From Roseiarcus fermentans (lineage in GTDB: Bacteria > Pseudomonadota > Alphaproteobacteria > Rhizobiales > Beijerinckiaceae), in contig NZ_QNRK01000006.1 of assembly GCF_003315135.1 (NCBI RefSeq), positions 62,001-126,000 on the forward strand: 64,000 nt of DNA, given 5' to 3'. Below, one piece after another: positions 55,909 to 64,000 of this stretch; within the stretch, counting starts at the first letter, position 1, and the number at the start of each line of letters is the position of its first letter. The notes below the pieces were generated by a model that did not search any database, was not told the DNA's origin, and saw only the letters and a program-made list of their open reading frames with translations. The translations under genes and the position numbers were made by a program.

Positions 55909-57066
55909 TCACCAGGCCCGGCGATAGATCTCGAGCGCGTCCGCCTCGGTCACGGCGCGCGGATTGTTCGGCAGCAGCCGGGTCTGTTTCATCGCGTCGC
56001 GCGCCAGCGCCGGCAGGACGTCCTCGGGGACGCCGGCGTCGCGCAGGCGCAGCGGCAGACCGCACGTCCGCGACAGGTTTTCCAGCGCGTCGCAGAAGGC
56101 TTCGGCGCGCGCCTGGCCCTCGAGGCGCGCGAGGTCCGGGAAGGCGACGGGCGCGATCTCGACATAGGCGCCCGGCGCCGTCTTGCAGTTGAAGCGCAGC
56201 ACGTGCGCCAGCACCAGCGCGTTCGACAGGCCGTGCGGGATGTGGAAGTGGCCGCCGAGCGGATAGGCGAGCGCGTGCACCGCGGCGACCGGCGAATTGG
56301 CGAACGCCTGTCCGGCGAGCATGGAGCCGAGCAGCATCGCCGAGCGCGCCGCGATGTCCGAGCCGTTGTGCACGGCGGTCTCGATCGCCCCGCCGAGCAG
56401 GGCGAGCGCCTCTTTCGCGAGCGCGCGCGAGATCGGGTTGGCGTTGGCGCTCTTCGAGGCGTAGGCCTCGATGGCGTGCACCATCGCGTCGATGCCGGTC
56501 GCGGCGGTGACGTGCGGCGGCAGCCCGAGCGTCAACTCGGGGTCGAGCAGGGCGACGTCGGGCAGGATGACCGGCGAGACCACGCCCATCTTTTCATTCT
56601 CGCCCGTGGTGACGATCGAGATCGGCGTCACCTCCGAGCCGGTGCCTGCGGTGGTGGGCACGAGGATCATCGGCAGCCTCGGCCCTTTCGCATTGCCGAC
56701 GCCGAACGCGTCCGCGAGCGTCTCGCGACCGGGGGCGAGCAGCGCGACGAGCTTGGCGGTGTCCAGCGACGATCCGCCGCCGAAGCCGATCACGCCGGTC
56801 GCGCCGGACTGAACGGCCGACTCGACGGCTTTCAGGATCATCGCCGCCGGCGGGTCCGCGGCGACGTCGGAGAACACGTCGGCCTCGACGCCCGCTTCGG
56901 AAAGCAGGCTCATGACGCGTTCGACCAGGCCGGTCGCGATCATGCCGGGGTCGGTGACGACGAGGACGCGGGGCCCGAGCCGCTCCTTCGCCAGCGCGCC
57001 GATCCTGACGATCGCTCCGGGCCCGAACTGGATGCTGGCGCTGGTGTTGAAGGCGAACGCGTTCAT
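55909..57066 (-). CDS. Iron-containing alcohol dehydrogenase
   Basis: This 385-residue group III alcohol dehydrogenase has the NAD-binding GFGGGSSLDTAK, PTTAGTGSEVTP, and metal ligands in the GIDAMVHAIEAY, AAVHALAYPLGGHFHIPHG region (Asp and three His). Length is standard. Substrates in this family include ethanol, lactaldehyde, methanol and 1,3-propanediol; none can be chosen here. It lies 22 nt after a sodium:solute symporter gene, so the symporter may bring in its substrate or product. Confidence 0.94.
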   Translation of the reverse strand: MNAFAFNTSASIQFGPGAIVRIGALAKERLGPRVLVVTDPGMIATGLVERVMSLLSEAGVEADVFSDVAADPPAAMILKAVESAVQSGATGVIGFGGGSSLDTAKLVALLAPGRETLADAFGVGNAKGPRLPMILVPTTAGTGSEVTPISIVTTGENEKMGVVSPVILPDVALLDPELTLGLPPHVTAATGIDAMVHAIEAYASKSANANPISRALAKEALALLGGAIETAVHNGSDIAARSAMLLGSMLAGQAFANSPVAAVHALAYPLGGHFHIPHGLSNALVLAHVLRFNCKTAPGAYVEIAPVAFPDLARLEGQARAEAFCDALENLSRTCGLPLRLRDAGVPEDVLPALARDAMKQTRLLPNNPRAVTEADALEIYRRAW

Positions 57067-57088: not shown

Positions 57089-59029
57089 TCAGTGTCCGAA
57101 GATCCAGGCCATGGCCGTTATCAGAGCGCCGGCGCCGCTCAATGTCCAGAGCAGCGCCTCCAGATGGTCGACCCGCAGGCCCCGGGTCTTCGGCCGGCCG
57201 GCCGGACCGCGGTCGACGGCGACGATGTCGACGCCCGGCGAGGTCGCCAGCTCCAGCTTGTAGGCGATGAGCCAGACGAGGATGACGCCGAGCGCCCACA
57301 TCGCGAGACACCACGCCCACAGGGGCGGCATGCCGAGCAGCCACGCGTCGAGGCCGCCGCCGGCGTCGCCCAGGGCGAAATTGCCGAACACCAGCCCCGG
57401 GCCCACCCCGAGGAACGCCCAGGCCAGCGCCGCCGACCAGGCCATCGACCGCACGCCGCGGGCGGCCGGTCTCGACGCCCCGAGGCCCGCGAAAAGCTCG
57501 TTCAGCGTCGCTGCGCGCTGGTTCGCGCGCCGCAGCGGCGTGATCGCCGAGATCACGAGCATCGTTGCGACATTCGCCGCGAGCCCCCAGCCCGCGGAGT
57601 GGATCGTCCAGGGCCAGCGGCCCCAGGGCAGATGCAGGCCGACGAAATCCATCACCGCGAGGCCGAAGCTGTCGGTCAACGCCGCCGTCGCGAGACCGAT
57701 GGCGGCGCCGACCAGAGCGGCCGGCGGCGAAATCCAGCGCAGCCAGCACAGGCCGGCGAGCGCCGGCAGCATTTGCGCGGCGAACGGAAGCGCGAGCGCG
57801 CCGAGCGACACCGCGGCTGCCGGCGCGCGGGTCGCGAGCAGGACGCTGGCCAGCATCAGGACGCCGACGCAGATGCGCCCGATCAGATTCGCGGTCCGCC
57901 CGTCCAGTTCCGGCATGAAGTCGGGGACGAAGATGTCGCGCACCAGGCCCCGCGCCGCGGTGATCACGCTGGCCGCGGCGAGGGCCTGAAAGCCTGCAAC
58001 CAGCGCGAAATAGATCGCCGCCATGAACCACGGCGAACCGGCGCCGAGGCGGACGAGCAGGTCGCCGACCGCGTCCCCGGACGACGCGATCATCCCGCAG
58101 GCGCCGACGAGCACGAGGCCGAAGACGCACAGGCCGCCGAAGAAGGCGGCGAGGACCCAGGTCTGGCCGGCCGCGATGGCGCGGTCGTCGCGCGCCGACA
58201 GCAGCAGTTGGGTCGCGATCGGACTCGCCTGCACGCCCGCCAGCGCCAGCGCCGTCGACAGCACCAGCGCCGAGGTCCAGCCGCCGGCGTCGTCGGCGCC
58301 GGCCACGAAGCGGACGACGCCGGACACGCGGAAGAGATGCGCGTTCGCCGGGTCGTGGGCGAGCTTAGCCAACGCCGCGTTGATCGCCGAAAAGCCGCCG
58401 CCGAGGTCGTTGGCGGCGATCGCGAGGCCGACGATTCCGGCCCCCAGCAGCACGCATTGCAACGCCCCGAGCGCGCCGGCCGCGTAGAAGCCGCCGACGA
58501 TCACGTAGGAGAAGGTCATCAGGCTGAGGAGCCAGGTGGCCGGCTCGGGCGCGATGCCGCCGCCGGAGAGATCCGCCATCAGGCGGCCGAGCACGCTGAG
58601 CTGGACGGCGGCGAAGGCCACCGCGAACAGCGTCGCGAGGCCCCCCGACAGCCACGCGAAGCCGCGCGAGCGATAGTAGAAGGCGAGCAGTTGCGCCTGG
58701 CTGCGCGCGCCGAAACGGCGCCCGGCCTGCCACTGCCGCTTGAAGGTGGCGACGCCCAGGAGCGCCATCGGAATGGTCGCGAGCGCGAGCCCGGCGCCGG
58801 AAAATCCGGCGCGCGCCACGTCGTCCGGCAGGCCCAGCGTGATCCAGGCCGACAGGCTCATCGCCGCGAGCGCCAGGGCGACGATCCACGCCGGAAGCTC
58901 GCCCGTCGCCGACAGGAAGCGGCGCGTTCCGGCCTCGCGCAGCGCGCATTGGCGCGCCCAGAACGAGGTCGCCGCCACATAGACCGTTCCGAAGGCGATC
59001 AGCCAGATCTGCGCCGCCGTGAGGGTCAT
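57089..59029 (-). CDS. Sodium:solute symporter family protein
   Basis: This 646-residue inner-membrane transporter has about 13-14 hydrophobic segments and LeuT/SSS-fold signatures: SAWITLGLPDDVARAGFSG, AFYYRSRGFAW and VQLSVLGRLMADLSGG near the front, and GFQALAAASVITAARGLVRD later. The substrate is unknown; acetate, lactate, sugars and amino acids all occur in the family. Its start overlaps the stop of a small membrane-protein gene (ATGA), so the two are coupled. The C-terminus adds a cytoplasmic stretch and one more membrane segment (about 620-643). Confidence 0.9.
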   Translation of the reverse strand: MTLTAAQIWLIAFGTVYVAATSFWARQCALREAGTRRFLSATGELPAWIVALALAAMSLSAWITLGLPDDVARAGFSGAGLALATIPMALLGVATFKRQWQAGRRFGARSQAQLLAFYYRSRGFAWLSGGLATLFAVAFAAVQLSVLGRLMADLSGGGIAPEPATWLLSLMTFSYVIVGGFYAAGALGALQCVLLGAGIVGLAIAANDLGGGFSAINAALAKLAHDPANAHLFRVSGVVRFVAGADDAGGWTSALVLSTALALAGVQASPIATQLLLSARDDRAIAAGQTWVLAAFFGGLCVFGLVLVGACGMIASSGDAVGDLLVRLGAGSPWFMAAIYFALVAGFQALAAASVITAARGLVRDIFVPDFMPELDGRTANLIGRICVGVLMLASVLLATRAPAAAVSLGALALPFAAQMLPALAGLCWLRWISPPAALVGAAIGLATAALTDSFGLAVMDFVGLHLPWGRWPWTIHSAGWGLAANVATMLVISAITPLRRANQRAATLNELFAGLGASRPAARGVRSMAWSAALAWAFLGVGPGLVFGNFALGDAGGGLDAWLLGMPPLWAWCLAMWALGVILVWLIAYKLELATSPGVDIVAVDRGPAGRPKTRGLRVDHLEALLWTLSGAGALITAMAWIFGH

Positions 59030-59445
59030 CGGCGCCCACCGCGCCCGGATCGTCCGCGAATCTGCGAGAACGCGCTTCTCACTCCGAACCGCGTCGCCAG
59101 ATAGACGAAGCCGCTGGCGATCAGCGCCACGATCAGCGTCAGGCCGGTCCAGACGGTCGTGTCTCGGAGGCTGCTCGCGAGCCAGGACACGGTGAAGACC
59201 AGCACCACCAGGGCGACCGCGGCGAGCCCCAGGCCGGCCTCGGCGCGCGAGAACGTCCGGCCGAACCGGGCGTTGACGATCAGGTGACCGACGAATCCGG
59301 CCACCGCCGCGGCGACGCCGACCAGCGACAGCGGATAGGCCTCGCGCGTCACGCCCTCCATCAGGAAGCCGATGGCGATCGCGCCGAACACGCCCCAATT
59401 GGCGAAGACGGCGATCCCGTGCTCGACGTATCGGTCAGTGTCCAA
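59026..59445 (-). CDS. Small four-helix membrane protein coupled to the symporter
   Basis: This 139-residue protein has four predicted membrane segments (about 15-30, 38-58, 70-92, 98-116) and a basic C-terminal tail (RGRSGRGGRR). I do not recognise a family. Some sodium:solute symporters have small helper subunits, but this is longer than those I know. It starts at a TTG; no ATG lies near, and GAGG is upstream. The ATGA overlap with the symporter argues for a stoichiometric partner. It lies 45 nt after the flotillin gene. Confidence 0.75.
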   Translation of the reverse strand: MDTDRYVEHGIAVFANWGVFGAIAIGFLMEGVTREAYPLSLVGVAAAVAGFVGHLIVNARFGRTFSRAEAGLGLAAVALVVLVFTVSWLASSLRDTTVWTGLTLIVALIASGFVYLATRFGVRSAFSQIRGRSGRGGRR

Positions 59446-59490: not shown

Positions 59491-61164
59491 TCACCGGCCC
59501 GCGGGCTCCCCGCCGCCGTCCGCTTCGCCCGTCCGCGAGTAGACGATCTTCGACAGATTCTGCAGCGGCTGCGTGCGGTGGATCTCGGCCGAAGACAGGC
59601 CGATCTCGCCGAGCAGGGTGTCGACGAACGGCGCCTGCGCCCGGTATCGCAGCGCGGAGCTGACGACCTCCTCGGCGAGGTTGCCGTCCCTGGGGCCATG
59701 CGGCGCGCTCTCGCCGCCCGCGCCGCCGCCGTTGGCCGGGCCCGGGCTCGACAGCCCCGGCAGGCCCTCGACGTGGAGGATCTTGATGCCTTCGATCCGC
59801 TCCATCGGCTTGACGCTCTCGCGGATGATGCTCGGCAGCACTTCGACCAGCTTCTGGTGCAGCGCGCTTCTGCGGCTCGCGTCGGAGCGCAGGTTCTCCG
59901 CCTCGTTGACGGCGCGTCGGGCTTCCGACTCGACCGCCGAGCGCTCCTTCAGCGCCGCGACGGTGATCCGGTCGGCGTCGGCGCGATCGGACGCCGCGGC
60001 CTTGTCCGCCTGGGCCAGCAGCGTGATTCTGACCGCCTCGACCTCGGCCTGGCGCCTGGCGCCGATCAGGTCGATCTCGCGTCTCCGGTTGGCCACTTCC
60101 GTCTCGCGCGCGGTCTCGACGCGCTCCTGCGCCTCGAGCAGCGCCCTGCGCGCGTCCTCCGCCGCGGCCTGAATGCGCGACCGCTCCTGCGATTTTTCCG
60201 CAACCGCGATTTCGCGCGCCTGCTCCGCCAGCTCCCGGGCCTCGAGGCGCCCGATCTCCAGCGCTTCGAGCGTGCGCTCCATGGCGATGCGGGTGCGTTC
60301 GACCTCCTCGCGCTCCTGGATCTTCGCGGCCTCGATGTCGCGTTCGCTGGCGGCGCGTTCGCGCTCGACTTCGGCGGCCTGCTGGGCGCGCCGGCGGGCG
60401 ATCTCGCTCTCCTGGGCGAGCCGCGCGTATTCCGTCTCCCGGCCGATCTCGAGCGACATCTTCTCCGCCTCGAGGTTCTTGTTGCGGATCGCGATCAGCG
60501 TGTCCTGCTCGATGTCGTTGCGCTTCTTCTTGCGCGATTCGATCTCCTCGGTCAGGCGGGTCAGACCCTCGGCGTCGAAGGCGTTGGCCGGGTTGAACAG
60601 CTTCATGTCGGCCTGATCGAGCGAGACGAGCGAGACCGCCTCGAGCTCCAGCCCGTTCTGGCCGAGGTTCTTGACCACCTCCGCCTTGACGCCGGCGATG
60701 AACCGGTCGCGGCGCTCGTGCATTTCCTCGAGCGTCATCGAGGCGGCGACCGACCCCATCGCGTCGACGAAGCGTCCCTGCACCAGCTCGCGCAGCTTCT
60801 CCGGCTCCATGGTGCGCCGCCCGAGCGTGCGCGCGGCGGTCGCGACGTCGGCGGCGTTCGGCACCACCCGGAGGTAGAACTCGACTTCGAGCTCGATGCG
60901 CATGCGGTCCTTGGTGATCAGCGCCTTCTCGCGCGCCCGCGTGACCTGCAGGCGAAGGGTGTTCATGCCCACCTCGGTCAGGTCGTGGACGATCGGCAGG
61001 ATGAACGCGCCGCCGCCCATGATGACCTTTTCCCCGCCGAGCCCCGTCCTGACGAACGACACGTCCTTGGTCGACCGGCGATAGAGCCAGTGCATGAGAT
61101 AGGCGAGGATGGCGATGACGATCGCCGCGAGGATGATGACCGCAATGATATCGGCGCCGTTCAT
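59491..61164 (-). CDS. SPFH/Band 7 flotillin-like membrane protein
   Basis: This 557-residue protein has one N-terminal membrane segment (about 5-28), an SPFH domain (about 35-195, with VRTGLGGEKVIMGGGAFILP and ELVQGRFVDAMG) and a long charged coiled coil (about 215-440, Glu/Ala/Arg-rich) like eukaryotic and bacterial flotillins (FloT/YuaG). The C-terminal 100 residues include GGGAGGES and a short conserved-looking end. Flotillins scaffold membrane microdomains and membrane-protein assembly. Its gene follows the opsin-like gene with 52 nt and a stem-loop between; AGGAG precedes the ATG. Confidence 0.93.
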   Translation of the reverse strand: MNGADIIAVIILAAIVIAILAYLMHWLYRRSTKDVSFVRTGLGGEKVIMGGGAFILPIVHDLTEVGMNTLRLQVTRAREKALITKDRMRIELEVEFYLRVVPNAADVATAARTLGRRTMEPEKLRELVQGRFVDAMGSVAASMTLEEMHERRDRFIAGVKAEVVKNLGQNGLELEAVSLVSLDQADMKLFNPANAFDAEGLTRLTEEIESRKKKRNDIEQDTLIAIRNKNLEAEKMSLEIGRETEYARLAQESEIARRRAQQAAEVERERAASERDIEAAKIQEREEVERTRIAMERTLEALEIGRLEARELAEQAREIAVAEKSQERSRIQAAAEDARRALLEAQERVETARETEVANRRREIDLIGARRQAEVEAVRITLLAQADKAAASDRADADRITVAALKERSAVESEARRAVNEAENLRSDASRRSALHQKLVEVLPSIIRESVKPMERIEGIKILHVEGLPGLSSPGPANGGGAGGESAPHGPRDGNLAEEVVSSALRYRAQAPFVDTLLGEIGLSSAEIHRTQPLQNLSKIVYSRTGEADGGGEPAGR

Positions 61165-61194: not shown

Positions 61195-61220
61195 CTGAAG
61201 GCGGCGGGCGCCGTCTTCAG
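61195..61220 (-). repeat. Stem-loop after the opsin-like gene
   Basis: An 11-bp stem (CTGAAGGCGGC / GCCGTCTTCAG, one G-T pair) with a GGGC loop that begins in the stop codon of the opsin-like gene and ends 30 nt before the flotillin start. No T-run follows, so partial termination or mRNA processing is more likely than a full stop. Confidence 0.55.
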
Positions 61221-61927
61221 CGCGCTGCGACCCGATCGTTGTCCGCGCTCGCCATCGCGGTCGCGAGCACCGCGAGGCCGAAGGCGATCAGGTTGACGAA
61301 TTCGGCGAGGTTGTAGGCGAGGCTCAGCCGGCCGTCGTCGACCGCGCTGGTGAAGCTGACGATGAAGCTGCCGAGCGGATAGATCGCCCAGCCGACGGTG
61401 GCGACGATGCGCAGCCAGAAATATCCCCGCCGCAGGGCGTCGCCGCCGCCCGTCGCGACCGCCTCGTCCATCTGGCCGAAGTACAGCTCGCCGAGAATGT
61501 ACAGCCAGAACGCGACGCCGATCAGGAAGGCGAGGGTCGGGGCCATCAGCTTCGCGTCGCCGAGGTAGCGGACGAGCACCATCAGGATCGAGACGACCGC
61601 GAGTCGCCAGAACAAGGCCTGCGAGACCTTGCCGCCCCGTCCCGCCAGGAAGAACAGCGTCAGGACCTGGACGGGCATCGAGATGATCCATCCGGCGTAG
61701 GGATAGGCGACGGACACGCTCTTGGCGGCGACCCAGGCCGCGCGGGAGTCGTACGCCTGGCAGGCGCCGACCAGCATCGCGATCGCGGCGAGGCCGACGA
61801 CCAGCTTCCAGCCGCGCTCGACCCAGCTCACGCCGAGCAGCAGGAAGACAGTCGCGCCGGCGAGCGCATAGAGGAGCGCGGAATAGCTGGCGCCGGTCAG
61901 ATCCTGCGGATCGATCATCGTCGTCAC
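61217..61927 (-). CDS. Microbial-rhodopsin-like seven-helix protein lacking the retinal lysine
   Basis: This 236-residue protein has seven hydrophobic helices and aligns by eye with bacteriorhodopsin. Helix C reads YPYAGWIISMPVQVLTL against YARYADWLFTTP...: Tyr, Trp and Pro match (Y77, W80, P85), but Arg82, Asp85 and Asp96 of BR become Pro76, Gly79 and Thr90. Helix E has FWLYILGELYFG; helix F has R173, W180, Y183 and P184. In helix G, Glu209 takes the Asp212 place and Leu213 (or Asn212) the place of Lys216; no Lys occurs after residue 126. So it is a type-1 opsin without a Schiff-base lysine, of the class called Rh-noK. It probably senses or binds something other than covalent retinal. GTG 61927 has GGGAG 8 nt upstream. 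Confidence 0.82.
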   Translation of the reverse strand: MTTMIDPQDLTGASYSALLYALAGATVFLLLGVSWVERGWKLVVGLAAIAMLVGACQAYDSRAAWVAAKSVSVAYPYAGWIISMPVQVLTLFFLAGRGGKVSQALFWRLAVVSILMVLVRYLGDAKLMAPTLAFLIGVAFWLYILGELYFGQMDEAVATGGGDALRRGYFWLRIVATVGWAIYPLGSFIVSFTSAVDDGRLSLAYNLAEFVNLIAFGLAVLATAMASADNDRVAAR

Positions 61928-61962
61928 CGGCGCCGCTCCCGAAGGTCGTTGGCTGTGGTCAT
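61924..61962 (-). CDS. Possible 12-codon leader ORF before the opsin-like gene
   Basis: An ATG with GAGGAAG 2-3 nt upstream opens a 12-residue frame (MTTANDLRERRR) whose TGA overlaps the GTG of the opsin-like gene (GTGA). It starts 8 nt after the permease stop. It could couple translation from permease to opsin. No homology can be judged at this size, so it may be chance. Confidence 0.35.
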   Translation of the reverse strand: MTTANDLRERRR

Positions 61963-61969
61963 GGCTTCC

Positions 61970-63340
61970 TCAAATCTGGGTTCGGATGTGCGGGGAGCGC
62001 GCGTAGAGCGCCACCATCGGCAGGATCAGCAGACCGAAGATGAACTGCTGCCACTCGAATTTCAGGCCGATGCCGACGAGGAACGAGGTCAGCACCTGCA
62101 GCACCAGGACGCCGATCACCGTGAAGCCGTATCCCCCGGTCCCACCGAGCAGCGACGTCCCGCCGACCACGACCGCGGCGAGCGTCATGAACAGGTACTG
62201 GGAGCCCACGCCGATGAAGCCGCCGCCGCTCCAGCCGAGCAGCAGGCAGCCGGTGAAGGCGGAAAACAGGCCGCTGAGGCCGAAAGCGGAGATCCAGTAG
62301 GCGCGCTCGGAGATGAAGAGGCGCTCGGCCGAAGTGCGGTTGACGCCGAGCGCGTAGAGAAACCGGCCGTAGACGGTGCTGCGCAGGCCGATGACGAGGA
62401 TCAGCGACGCCAGGCCCCAGATCGCGATCACCGGCGGGAACGGCAGCCCGAAGGTCGAGCCGGCCATCGAGGACAGGTTGGTCAGCCAGTCGGGCACGGT
62501 TCCGAACACGTTGCCGCTGTAGGCCGAGCCGATCGAGGTGACGATCTGGGTCGCGCCGGAGACGACGAAGCCGGCGCCGAGCGTGACGATCAGCGCCTGA
62601 CCTTGCAGCCTCAGGCTCAGGACGCCGTTGACGACCCCGATCAGGCCGCCCGCGAGCAGGATCAGACAGAAGGCGAGCCAGGCCGGCACGCCGAGACTGA
62701 TCAGGTAAAGCAGCCCGACGTTGGCCGCGCCGATCACGTAGGGGATCGACAGGTCGAGGCCGCCGAGCAGCGCAACCAGGGTCTGCCCGATCGAGGCGAG
62801 GCCGAGGAAGGACGCAAACAGCAGCATCGACTTGATGTTGGTCGCCGAGGCGAAGCCCTCGATGTTCATCGAGCCGACCGAAAACAGCCCGGCCAGCACC
62901 ATGAGTCCGATGAAGGCGCTGCGGTTCTCCGCCATGAAGCGGCCGACGCTCATGGTCAGGATGATGATCAGGAGCAGGATCAGCGCCGAGATCACGGTCC
63001 AGACGTTGAAGAAGCCGTCGATCGTCAGCGAAAGCGCGACAAAGACGCCGACGAGCGCGAGGAAGCCGAGGAGCAGCCCGCGATATCGGCGCCAGGCCCT
63101 GCGAAGCTCGCTCGCCCCCTGTTCGCCGGCGGCGCCGGCGCTGAACTGGAGCACGTAGAACCGCCAAATCCAGGCCGACAGGGCGAAGGTCGCGATGGAA
63201 TAGAGGATGACCTCTTGCGTCGGCAGGCTCTGATAGACGCCGACGCCCGCGCTGACCGCGGTCAGCGCAATCGCGATCAGGAGACCGATGACGCGCGAGA
63301 GCAGGCTGCCGGCCGGCGGCGTCGTGAGCGAAGCGGTCAT
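61970..63340 (-). CDS. RbsC-type sugar ABC transporter permease with N-terminal extension
   Basis: This 456-residue inner-membrane permease has the RbsC/YjfF-type core from about residue 150: LASIGQTLVALLGGLDLSIP, a mid segment GQALIVTLGAGFVVSG, GRFLYALGVNRTSAERLFIS and the end GGTSLLGGTGGYGFTVIG. RbsC-like permeases are about 320-340 residues; the extra 130 at the N-terminus hold about two more membrane segments and a basic linker (RRAWRRYRG). Its start overlaps the stop of the upstream permease, so they form a heterodimer. The ligand is unknown; ribose-, galactofuranose- or autoinducer-type sugars are typical. Confidence 0.9.
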   Translation of the reverse strand: MTASLTTPPAGSLLSRVIGLLIAIALTAVSAGVGVYQSLPTQEVILYSIATFALSAWIWRFYVLQFSAGAAGEQGASELRRAWRRYRGLLLGFLALVGVFVALSLTIDGFFNVWTVISALILLLIIILTMSVGRFMAENRSAFIGLMVLAGLFSVGSMNIEGFASATNIKSMLLFASFLGLASIGQTLVALLGGLDLSIPYVIGAANVGLLYLISLGVPAWLAFCLILLAGGLIGVVNGVLSLRLQGQALIVTLGAGFVVSGATQIVTSIGSAYSGNVFGTVPDWLTNLSSMAGSTFGLPFPPVIAIWGLASLILVIGLRSTVYGRFLYALGVNRTSAERLFISERAYWISAFGLSGLFSAFTGCLLLGWSGGGFIGVGSQYLFMTLAAVVVGGTSLLGGTGGYGFTVIGVLVLQVLTSFLVGIGLKFEWQQFIFGLLILPMVALYARSPHIRTQI

Positions 63341-64000
63341 GGCCGGGCGCTCCCGTGGCCGACGCCGCCGGCGTAGCCGTGCGTCGCGAGATAGACCGCG
63401 AGCAAGGCGAGGCCGGTCACGACGATGTAGACGATCGGGCCCAGGCCGCGGCGGCGCGCGCCGACGATCAGGGTTCGCGCGATCAGGGGCACGGTCAGCA
63501 GCAGGACGCCGACGAAGGCCCAGAGCCGGCTGTCGCGCCCGGACTCGGCGGCGGCGCCGCGCAGCGCCTGGATCTCGAGGAACCCGGCGGCCGTCCCGGT
63601 CGCCGCCGCGCTCGGGACGTCGCCGGTGTAGGTCGAAAACAGGATCACGCCGAGCGCCACGATCGCGAGCACGACGAAATAGAGCAGGGCCGAGAAGTTT
63701 CCGATCGTCCGCTGGATCACCGGCAGCGTCAGGGTGAGGAGCAGCGAGGCGACGAGAATCGCGCCGTAGCACAGGTCGGTGACGAAGCTCTGGATGCCGC
63801 CGAACGAAAACGTCGAGAGCACGTAAGTGATGAGATAGAGATCGACCGCGCCGATCAGCGAGCCGGCGAGGCTCGCCCGGCCGCCGCCGAGGGAAGCGCC
63901 GCCGAGCACCAGCGCGGTGACCGCGAGGAGCGTGTAGGTGGTGCCCTGGCCCGGGTCGCCGGAGCCGATCAGCGCGGTGAAGCAGATCGCCGACAGGCCG
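63337..64000 (-). CDS. RbsC-type ABC transporter permease, 5' part beyond the window
   Basis: The C-terminal 220 residues or so of a second permease; the reading frame stays open past 64000. The motif LVLGGASLGGGRASLAGSLI matches the conserved AVVLGGTSLxGGRGS of RbsC-like permeases and AVDLYLITYVLSTFSF follows. About six membrane segments are visible, more than a plain RbsC end, so this one also looks enlarged. It overlaps the next permease by ATGA. The ATPase and binding protein should lie upstream, outside the window. Confidence 0.88.
   Translation of the reverse strand, partial: GLSAICFTALIGSGDPGQGTTYTLLAVTALVLGGASLGGGRASLAGSLIGAVDLYLITYVLSTFSFGGIQSFVTDLCYGAILVASLLLTLTLPVIQRTIGNFSALLYFVVLAIVALGVILFSTYTGDVPSAAATGTAAGFLEIQALRGAAAESGRDSRLWAFVGVLLLTVPLIARTLIVGARRRGLGPIVYIVVTGLALLAVYLATHGYAGGVGHGSARP

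Follow-up and report, generated by a model that had tools for sequence, protein, structure and literature searches.

A lysine-less, flotillin-associated opsin encoded with a CUT2-type importer in Roseiarcus fermentans and other Hyphomicrobiales, a candidate accessory membrane subunit

The closest described relatives of the opsin analysed here are the flotillin-associated rhodopsins (FArhodopsins or FARs), treated in the open-access literature by Haro-Moreno 2023 (PMC10308929), with the term appearing once in the available text of PMC10308909. According to passages of the former paper, the lysine-less freshwater FArhodopsins carry Leu or Arg, also Gln or Thr, at the place of the Schiff-base lysine (Lys216), adjoin a flotillin gene and lie in clusters with a sodium symporter, an inner-membrane translocator, alpha/beta hydrolases and iron-dependent alcohol dehydrogenases; they come from short metagenome contigs, the rest of the genome being unknown. 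The same passages put FArhodopsins forward as complements to a proteorhodopsin that shares their cell, an idea the authors could not check for the freshwater proteins, propose a role in membrane microdomains, and report that pocket residues of marine FARs are predicted to clash with retinal. One lysine-bearing member, PsFAR, is deposited as PDB 9r21 and, by its entry title, as the double mutant H84V/E120G in 9r23; no paper on either entry was found in the open-access literature. The lysine is also lost in haloarchaeal opsin-related proteins (ORPs; Becker 2016, passages of PMC4915679), which carry Arg (group A) or mostly Leu and other hydrophobic residues (group B) in its place, do not bind retinal canonically, derive from haloarchaeal sensory opsins and in many cases adjoin chemotaxis transducers, and in Rh-noK of betaproteobacteria (Yamauchi 2019, as described in passages of PMC10308929), a xanthorhodopsin-related proton-pump relative found in tandem with a functional pump. 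The role of lysine-less opsins in general is unsettled.

The window, a 64,000-nucleotide stretch of a Roseiarcus fermentans contig (NZ_QNRK01000006.1), encodes an opsin of 236 aa with a GTG start (61217..61927, minus strand). It exceeds the cut-off of the PF01036 profile and its predicted structure has the seven-helix opsin fold, placing it in the microbial (type-1) rhodopsin superfamily, with PsFAR as the best PDB match. The original prediction, drawn by eye against bacteriorhodopsin, was of an opsin without the retinal-binding lysine, and this is borne out: Leu213 aligns with the Schiff-base position of helix G, Asp85 and Asp96 are replaced by Gly and Thr as proposed, and the pocket residues Trp86, Trp182, Tyr185 and an acidic residue at 212 are kept. 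Its choice of reference needs refining, in that the family is right, but the nearer kin are the proteorhodopsins and, within them, the flotillin-associated rhodopsins; that lysine-less type-1 opsins form a known class agrees with passages of PMC4915679 and PMC10308929. With G-S-T at positions 85/89/96 and Leu at 216, the protein also departs from the lysine-bearing marine FArhodopsins (Lys216 with DTT, DTL or DNI), and whilst PsFAR has lysine and aspartate at the 216 and 85 places, and His84 and Glu120, the window opsin has neither of the former and carries Met84 and Arg120. A bacteriorhodopsin-like pump is ruled out, as Asp85, Asp96 and Lys216 are all replaced. Family membership is therefore ordinary, a lysine-less FArhodopsin of an already published group; its setting is not. 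Immediately upstream, a 12-codon leader ORF (61924..61962, minus strand) ends in a TGA overlapping the opsin's GTG, an arrangement that makes translational coupling possible. Short ATG ORFs also lie upstream of the opsin in all three relatives inspected.

In overlapping genome samples, a search profile built from six lysine-less opsins picked up 27 genomes out of 397 at the level of the order, 32 out of 385 for the class, 7 out of 398 for the phylum and 6 out of 11 in one different order; one scan of GTDB contigs yielded five loci, and a plasmid collection six records. Among the aligned loci, opsins adjoining a flotillin were classed as FARs, the remainder being proteorhodopsins with a D-T-E motif and the lysine, without a flotillin match in the 1.5 kb fetched on each side. 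The lysine is absent in 21 of the 26 FAR loci compared (Arg 12, Leu 7, Glu 2) and kept in five, three of which come from one genus. A tree of 43 opsins, from which six pump and pocket columns were excluded, split 29 FAR rows (21 lysine-less, 8 lysine-bearing) from 14 proteorhodopsins (branch 100/96) and united the 21 lysine-less FARs in a single clade (100/100); one change of lysine state suffices on it. This tree was built without the published marine and freshwater FArhodopsin sequences, its tie to these being PsFAR as best PDB match, and the haloarchaeal ORPs, likewise outside it, are set apart by description, since the window opsin has proteorhodopsin-side descent and importer and flotillin neighbours. 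The rows nearest the query's Leu carry Leu and Arg amid Arg-bearing kin, so Arg to Leu was likely the last step at 216 in the query's own line. Viral spread found no backing: one scan of viral contigs returned no relative, and there was no PHROGs match.

Lys216 and Asp85 are both replaced in all 21 lysine-less opsins (Asp85 by Gly in 19, by Ala in 2). Loss of pump residues 85, 96 and 216 in the query could be read as the mark of a decaying proteorhodopsin remnant, a reading we find scarcely credible, as the frames are open in all 21 sequences and dN/dS is 0.058–0.209 (Nei-Gojobori counting; seven distinct lysine-less pairs, three sharing members), with 0.188 for the window opsin against its nearest relative. 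Six sites (W35, F93, R120, F150, F170 and W171) are moreover identical in 21/21 lysine-less opsins, occurring in at most one of 14 proteorhodopsins and in none of the eight lysine-bearing FARs; G32, V117, G168 and L221 show this pattern in 20/21, except that V117 also occurs once in lysine-bearing FARs. A pseudogene is ruled out by this constraint.

Position 120, which we take through the proteorhodopsin offset to be the place of bacteriorhodopsin Gly122, near the ring end of retinal, is Arg throughout the lysine-less clade, Gly in 14/14 proteorhodopsins, and Ala (7) or Glu (1) in the eight lysine-bearing FARs. Residue 84 varies among the lysine-less opsins (Met 13, Val 3, His 3, Ile 1, Gln 1). 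As the lysine-bearing FARs mostly have Val84 and Ala120 (7/8 each), their retinal pocket may be open, and blocking of the pocket was dropped as a FAR-wide trait and is claimed for the lysine-less clade alone.

Light might still be used through non-covalently held retinal or another pigment, as the retained Trp86, Trp182, Tyr185 and Asp/Glu212 and two RPE65-type oxygenases in the window's genome, which may be a source of retinoid there, would allow. The RPE65-type family also includes enzymes that make no retinal. Blh genes were found in none of 14 lysine-less genomes, none of five lysine-bearing FAR genomes and 6 of 12 proteorhodopsin genomes, and RPE65-type oxygenases in 2/14, 3/5 and 2/12, respectively, the window's genome being one of the two lysine-less carriers. 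Matches to both families are thus absent from 12/14 lysine-less genomes, although lack of Blh says little by itself because half of the proteorhodopsin genomes lack it too. Together with the missing Schiff-base lysine, and with Arg120 at the very site changed to Gly in PsFAR by the title of 9r23 (whose two mutated positions are Met84 and Arg120 in the query), this makes continued use of light very doubtful. What was once a light protein seems to have taken on a different role, one in which light plays no part.

A partnership with a proteorhodopsin in the same cell was also sought. Searched with PF01036, which leaves heliorhodopsins (PF18761) outside the search, each of 14 lysine-less and 8 lysine-bearing FAR genomes (22 in all; completeness 61–100%) gave exactly one match, and the proposal that FArhodopsins assist a proteorhodopsin therefore gains no support in these genomes; for them, the single gene speaks against it. 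In this the locus also differs from Rh-noK with its tandem pump, as no second PF01036 gene was found here.

The main clue to function, on which the original prediction is silent, is the operon itself, which joins a flotillin neighbour to an importer. Upstream of the opsin lies ABC permease 2 of CUT2 type (61970..63340, minus strand; PF02653 76.9 bits), whose ATG overlaps the end of permease 1, also of CUT2 type (PF02653 65.3 bits; minus strand), the 3' part of which occupies 63337..64000 of the window, the gene continuing to 64698 in the same coordinates on the contig. An ATPase and a substrate-binding protein also lie upstream, partly or wholly past the window end, and the set most resembles CUT2 sugar importers; none of its genes reached an NCBIfam cut-off that would assign a substrate. 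The order permease 2–opsin–flotillin recurs in 25 of 26 loci, whereas the remaining locus sits on a 4-kb contig too short to reach permease 2. In those 25 the gaps, measured from match ends, are 15–81 bases (permease 2 to opsin) and 8–102 bases (opsin to flotillin), leaving no room for another gene.

Both permeases carry extra membrane segments: permease 2 has an N-terminal extension of ~129 aa and permease 1 a C-terminal extension of ~130 aa. The 482-aa permease 2 query began 26 codons before the likely ATG (counted by eye), and its match starts at query residue 1–63 in 25/25 opsin loci; permease 1 runs 129–480 residues beyond query position 323 in 24/24, the contig of one further locus (G062) ending before it. 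In a related importer of Rhizobium tropici, by comparison, the permease 2 match begins at query residue 155, with at most eight in-frame residues before it, permease 1 ends nine residues past position 323, and the plasmid region has neither an opsin nor a flotillin match. Among 65 plasmid records with a permease 2 homologue, at least 80% query coverage was reached in six, which are the six opsin records. The permease 1 extension is poorly conserved, 80% coverage being reached in 3 of 65 records; in the Shinella opsin record the match stops at 312, as against 318 in opsin-less records, and the extension is seen only from the reading frame. The N-terminal extension was further searched for in 397 genomes of the order, using residues 1–160 of the permease 2 query (1–26 of which precede the likely start codon): 14 matched, of which 13 are among the 15 FAR genomes and the other, G291, is a weak match outside them (E 6e-4, 53 residues). 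The two misses are G269, where the extension is visible on reading the frame, and G033, a truncated contig. The association with the FAR opsin has a Fisher p of 1.8e-21, a value too small in that kinship is ignored and that takes both samples of 397 as the same. The permeases are thus longer with the opsin than in opsin-less homologues, which we read as a sign that opsin and permeases have co-evolved, and an importer with altered permeases is a concrete candidate partner for a lysine-less opsin. In the four lysine-bearing FAR loci with enough sequence to judge (L078, L080, L081 and L082), the permease 1 frame extends 417–480 residues past position 323, as against 129–204 in the lysine-less loci.

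On the other side, 52 bases downstream of the window opsin, lies a flotillin of 557 aa (59491..61164, minus strand) with SPFH/Band 7 and Flot domains (PF01145 51.5 bits, PF15975 113.6 bits), and a flotillin is the next homologue 3' of the opsin in 26/26 FAR loci, the hallmark of FArhodopsins. This constancy, and the microdomain role proposed in passages of PMC10308929, would suit an opsin that organises membrane microdomains as a partner of flotillin alone, with no direct link to the importer; we think this rather improbable, however, as it is the permeases, not flotillin alone, that differ where the opsin is present. Flotillin dN/dS was high in three listed pairs (0.34, 0.34 and 0.50; two from the same genomes). 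Relatives of the flotillin, ~44% identical in the listed rows, occur on many plasmid records, including 230 of Escherichia and 26 of Shigella. The flotillin is followed by hypB (59026..59445, minus strand), encoding a small membrane protein of 139 aa with four hydrophobic segments, which has no Pfam match (its Martelella counterpart has none in Pfam or NCBIfam) and a homologue of which follows the flotillin in 18/26 loci. Next come a sodium:solute symporter family protein (57089..59029, minus strand; PF00474 38.2 bits; start placed at the ATG at 59029) and an iron-containing alcohol dehydrogenase of 385 aa (55909..57066, minus strand; PF25137, PF00465).

Taking these lines together, we lean with modest confidence towards a retinal-free FAR descendant that most likely serves as an accessory membrane subunit of the co-encoded CUT2-type importer, in or near a flotillin platform. 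Retinal and light would have been given up and the seven-helix protein kept as a membrane part of the importer, with flotillin as the platform. It would pack against the extra permease segments and stabilise or gate the importer with no light step. We infer physical contact between opsin and permeases from gene order and permease length, bearing in mind that operon neighbours can share regulation without touching. Arg120 would close off or reshape the former retinal pocket, which may accommodate a lipid or a carboxylate ligand: passages of PMC11322631 describe a retinal-free proteoopsin that can hold decanoate in the chromophore pocket (8cnk is among the fold matches of the window opsin), which makes a fatty or carboxylic acid near the arginine a plausible thought. 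A bolder form of the subunit reading, in which the opsin is a fixed subunit docked on the extra segments of both permeases and uptake is gated when the arginine pocket takes up a fatty acid or the acid being transported, we put forward as unlikely but worth stating; if true, what began as a sensor of light would now act as a transporter's chemical gate. No paper joining opsin or rhodopsin, flotillin, ABC transporter and lipid raft in bacteria was found in the open-access literature.

The decanoate pocket would also serve a chemosensor, a seven-helix receptor whose former retinal site binds a ligand other than light and signals to a partner, as has been proposed for the lysine-less opsins of haloarchaea, and the Arg and Leu replacements and transducer neighbours of the ORPs cited above point the same way. 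Its partner, however, is not in evidence: gene tables covering 12 kb on either side of the opsin in three plasmids list no transducer, kinase or cyclase, nor does that of Hoeflea, whose record ends ~7 kb downstream, and no MCP/HAMP transducer, a neighbour not universal among ORPs by passages of PMC4915679, appears among the annotated operon genes or in four plasmid gene tables. Most of the surrounding genes serve transport, catabolism or regulation, and a chemosensor is, to our mind, a minor contender.

As for what the importer subunit reading would have transported, the operon's catabolic genes offer a lead. Further upstream stand a metallo-beta-lactamase-fold lactonase, an alpha/beta hydrolase (abH), hypA, which encodes a small conserved protein, and a divergent IclR-family regulator. 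The lactonase, ~4 kb past the window end on the same contig, scores 445.7 bits against the AttM NCBIfam equivalog NF045700 (cut-off 390), and that of Martelella, the other lactonase scanned, 415.1. hypA has no Pfam or NCBIfam match in the copies from the window's genome and Martelella, and the iron-containing dehydrogenase reached no NCBIfam equivalog cut-off (4-hydroxybutyrate dehydrogenase, 248.8 of 500). Within the clade with Arg or Leu at 216 that includes the window (n=14), the lactonase is present in 13 loci, the 14th contig ending first, the iron-dependent dehydrogenase in 14, and an adjoining succinate-semialdehyde dehydrogenase (SSADH) in 10; in the window's genome, SSADH is not beside the operon, and one above cut-off lies elsewhere.

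Of the proteins of the Agrobacterium blcABC (attKLM) system, BlcA is an SSADH, BlcB belongs to the iron-type dehydrogenases and BlcR to the IclR family. Passages of PMC5924552 and PMC4231840 describe the operon's conversion of gamma-butyrolactone to 4-hydroxybutyrate and succinate semialdehyde, its divergent repressor gene, and the cleavage of gamma-butyrolactone and many acyl-homoserine lactones by BlcC (AttM), and name no opsin, flotillin or CUT2 importer. The present lineage shares with it the AttM/BlcC-type lactonase, the divergent regulator (IclR here), the iron-dependent dehydrogenase and, in 10/14, the SSADH, so that lactonase, dehydrogenase and SSADH might act in the same sequence as blcABC does on gamma-butyrolactone. 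The hypA–abH pair also exists without the opsin: in six opsin-less plasmid records read, of 111 matched, a hypA match adjoins abH in 6/6, with an aldehyde or succinate-semialdehyde dehydrogenase directly after in 4/6, and none of the stretches gave a match to opsin, flotillin or an AttM-type enzyme. From these genes, a C4 lactone or hydroxy-acid is a fair guess at the substrate in the Arg/Leu clade, and the operon may, more tentatively, import and degrade a compound of this type in this lineage. The link is not general to FAR operons, as any AttM-type enzyme within reach of the second lysine-less group (five loci) or of the lysine-bearing FARs is only 34–37% identical, and elsewhere among them none is present in reach; of the two Glu-bearing Rhodospirillales loci, one has lactonase and hydrolase, on the opposite strand. 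A module in which a conserved small protein and an alpha/beta hydrolase are joined by a dehydrogenase for aldehyde or succinate semialdehyde was also seen in other phyla, on Rhodococcus and Peribacillus plasmids (L099, L102, L103, L106).

Unlike the freshwater FArhodopsins, those described here come from draft genomes and plasmids of cultured Hyphomicrobiales, with a lone opsin, an importer operon and, in this lineage, an AttM-type lactonase. The set from the IclR gene to the iron-dependent dehydrogenase lies on plasmids of Martelella sp. AD-3, M. lutilitoris, Hoeflea sp. IMCC20628 and Pararhizobium gei, so the hosts include named isolates, not uncultured plankton. The two Martelella sets are near-identical, the plasmid annotations label the opsin bacteriorhodopsin, permease 1 of Hoeflea is absent from the gene table and was recovered by tblastn, and Shinella sp. 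PSBB067 carries the second lysine-less operon type. Record CP070278.1 (Dysgonomonadaceae bacterium zrk40, 246,192 bases) is likely mislabelled or contaminated, its matches being identical to those of the M. lutilitoris plasmid NZ_CP066788.1 (246,197 bases). On G033, a 4,090-base contig of a large-genome bin, the lysine-bearing FAR opsin has one in-frame TAG near the N-terminus; it may start after the TAG, or the contig may be a binning error. Finally, an opsin of a different type was noted in the same family as the window's genome (L007, match 1501–2163; PF01036 54.7 bits), a weak match to a proteorhodopsin profile whose helix G, by eye, has no Schiff-base lysine and whose gene adjoins, again by eye, a dihydrodipicolinate-synthase-like gene.
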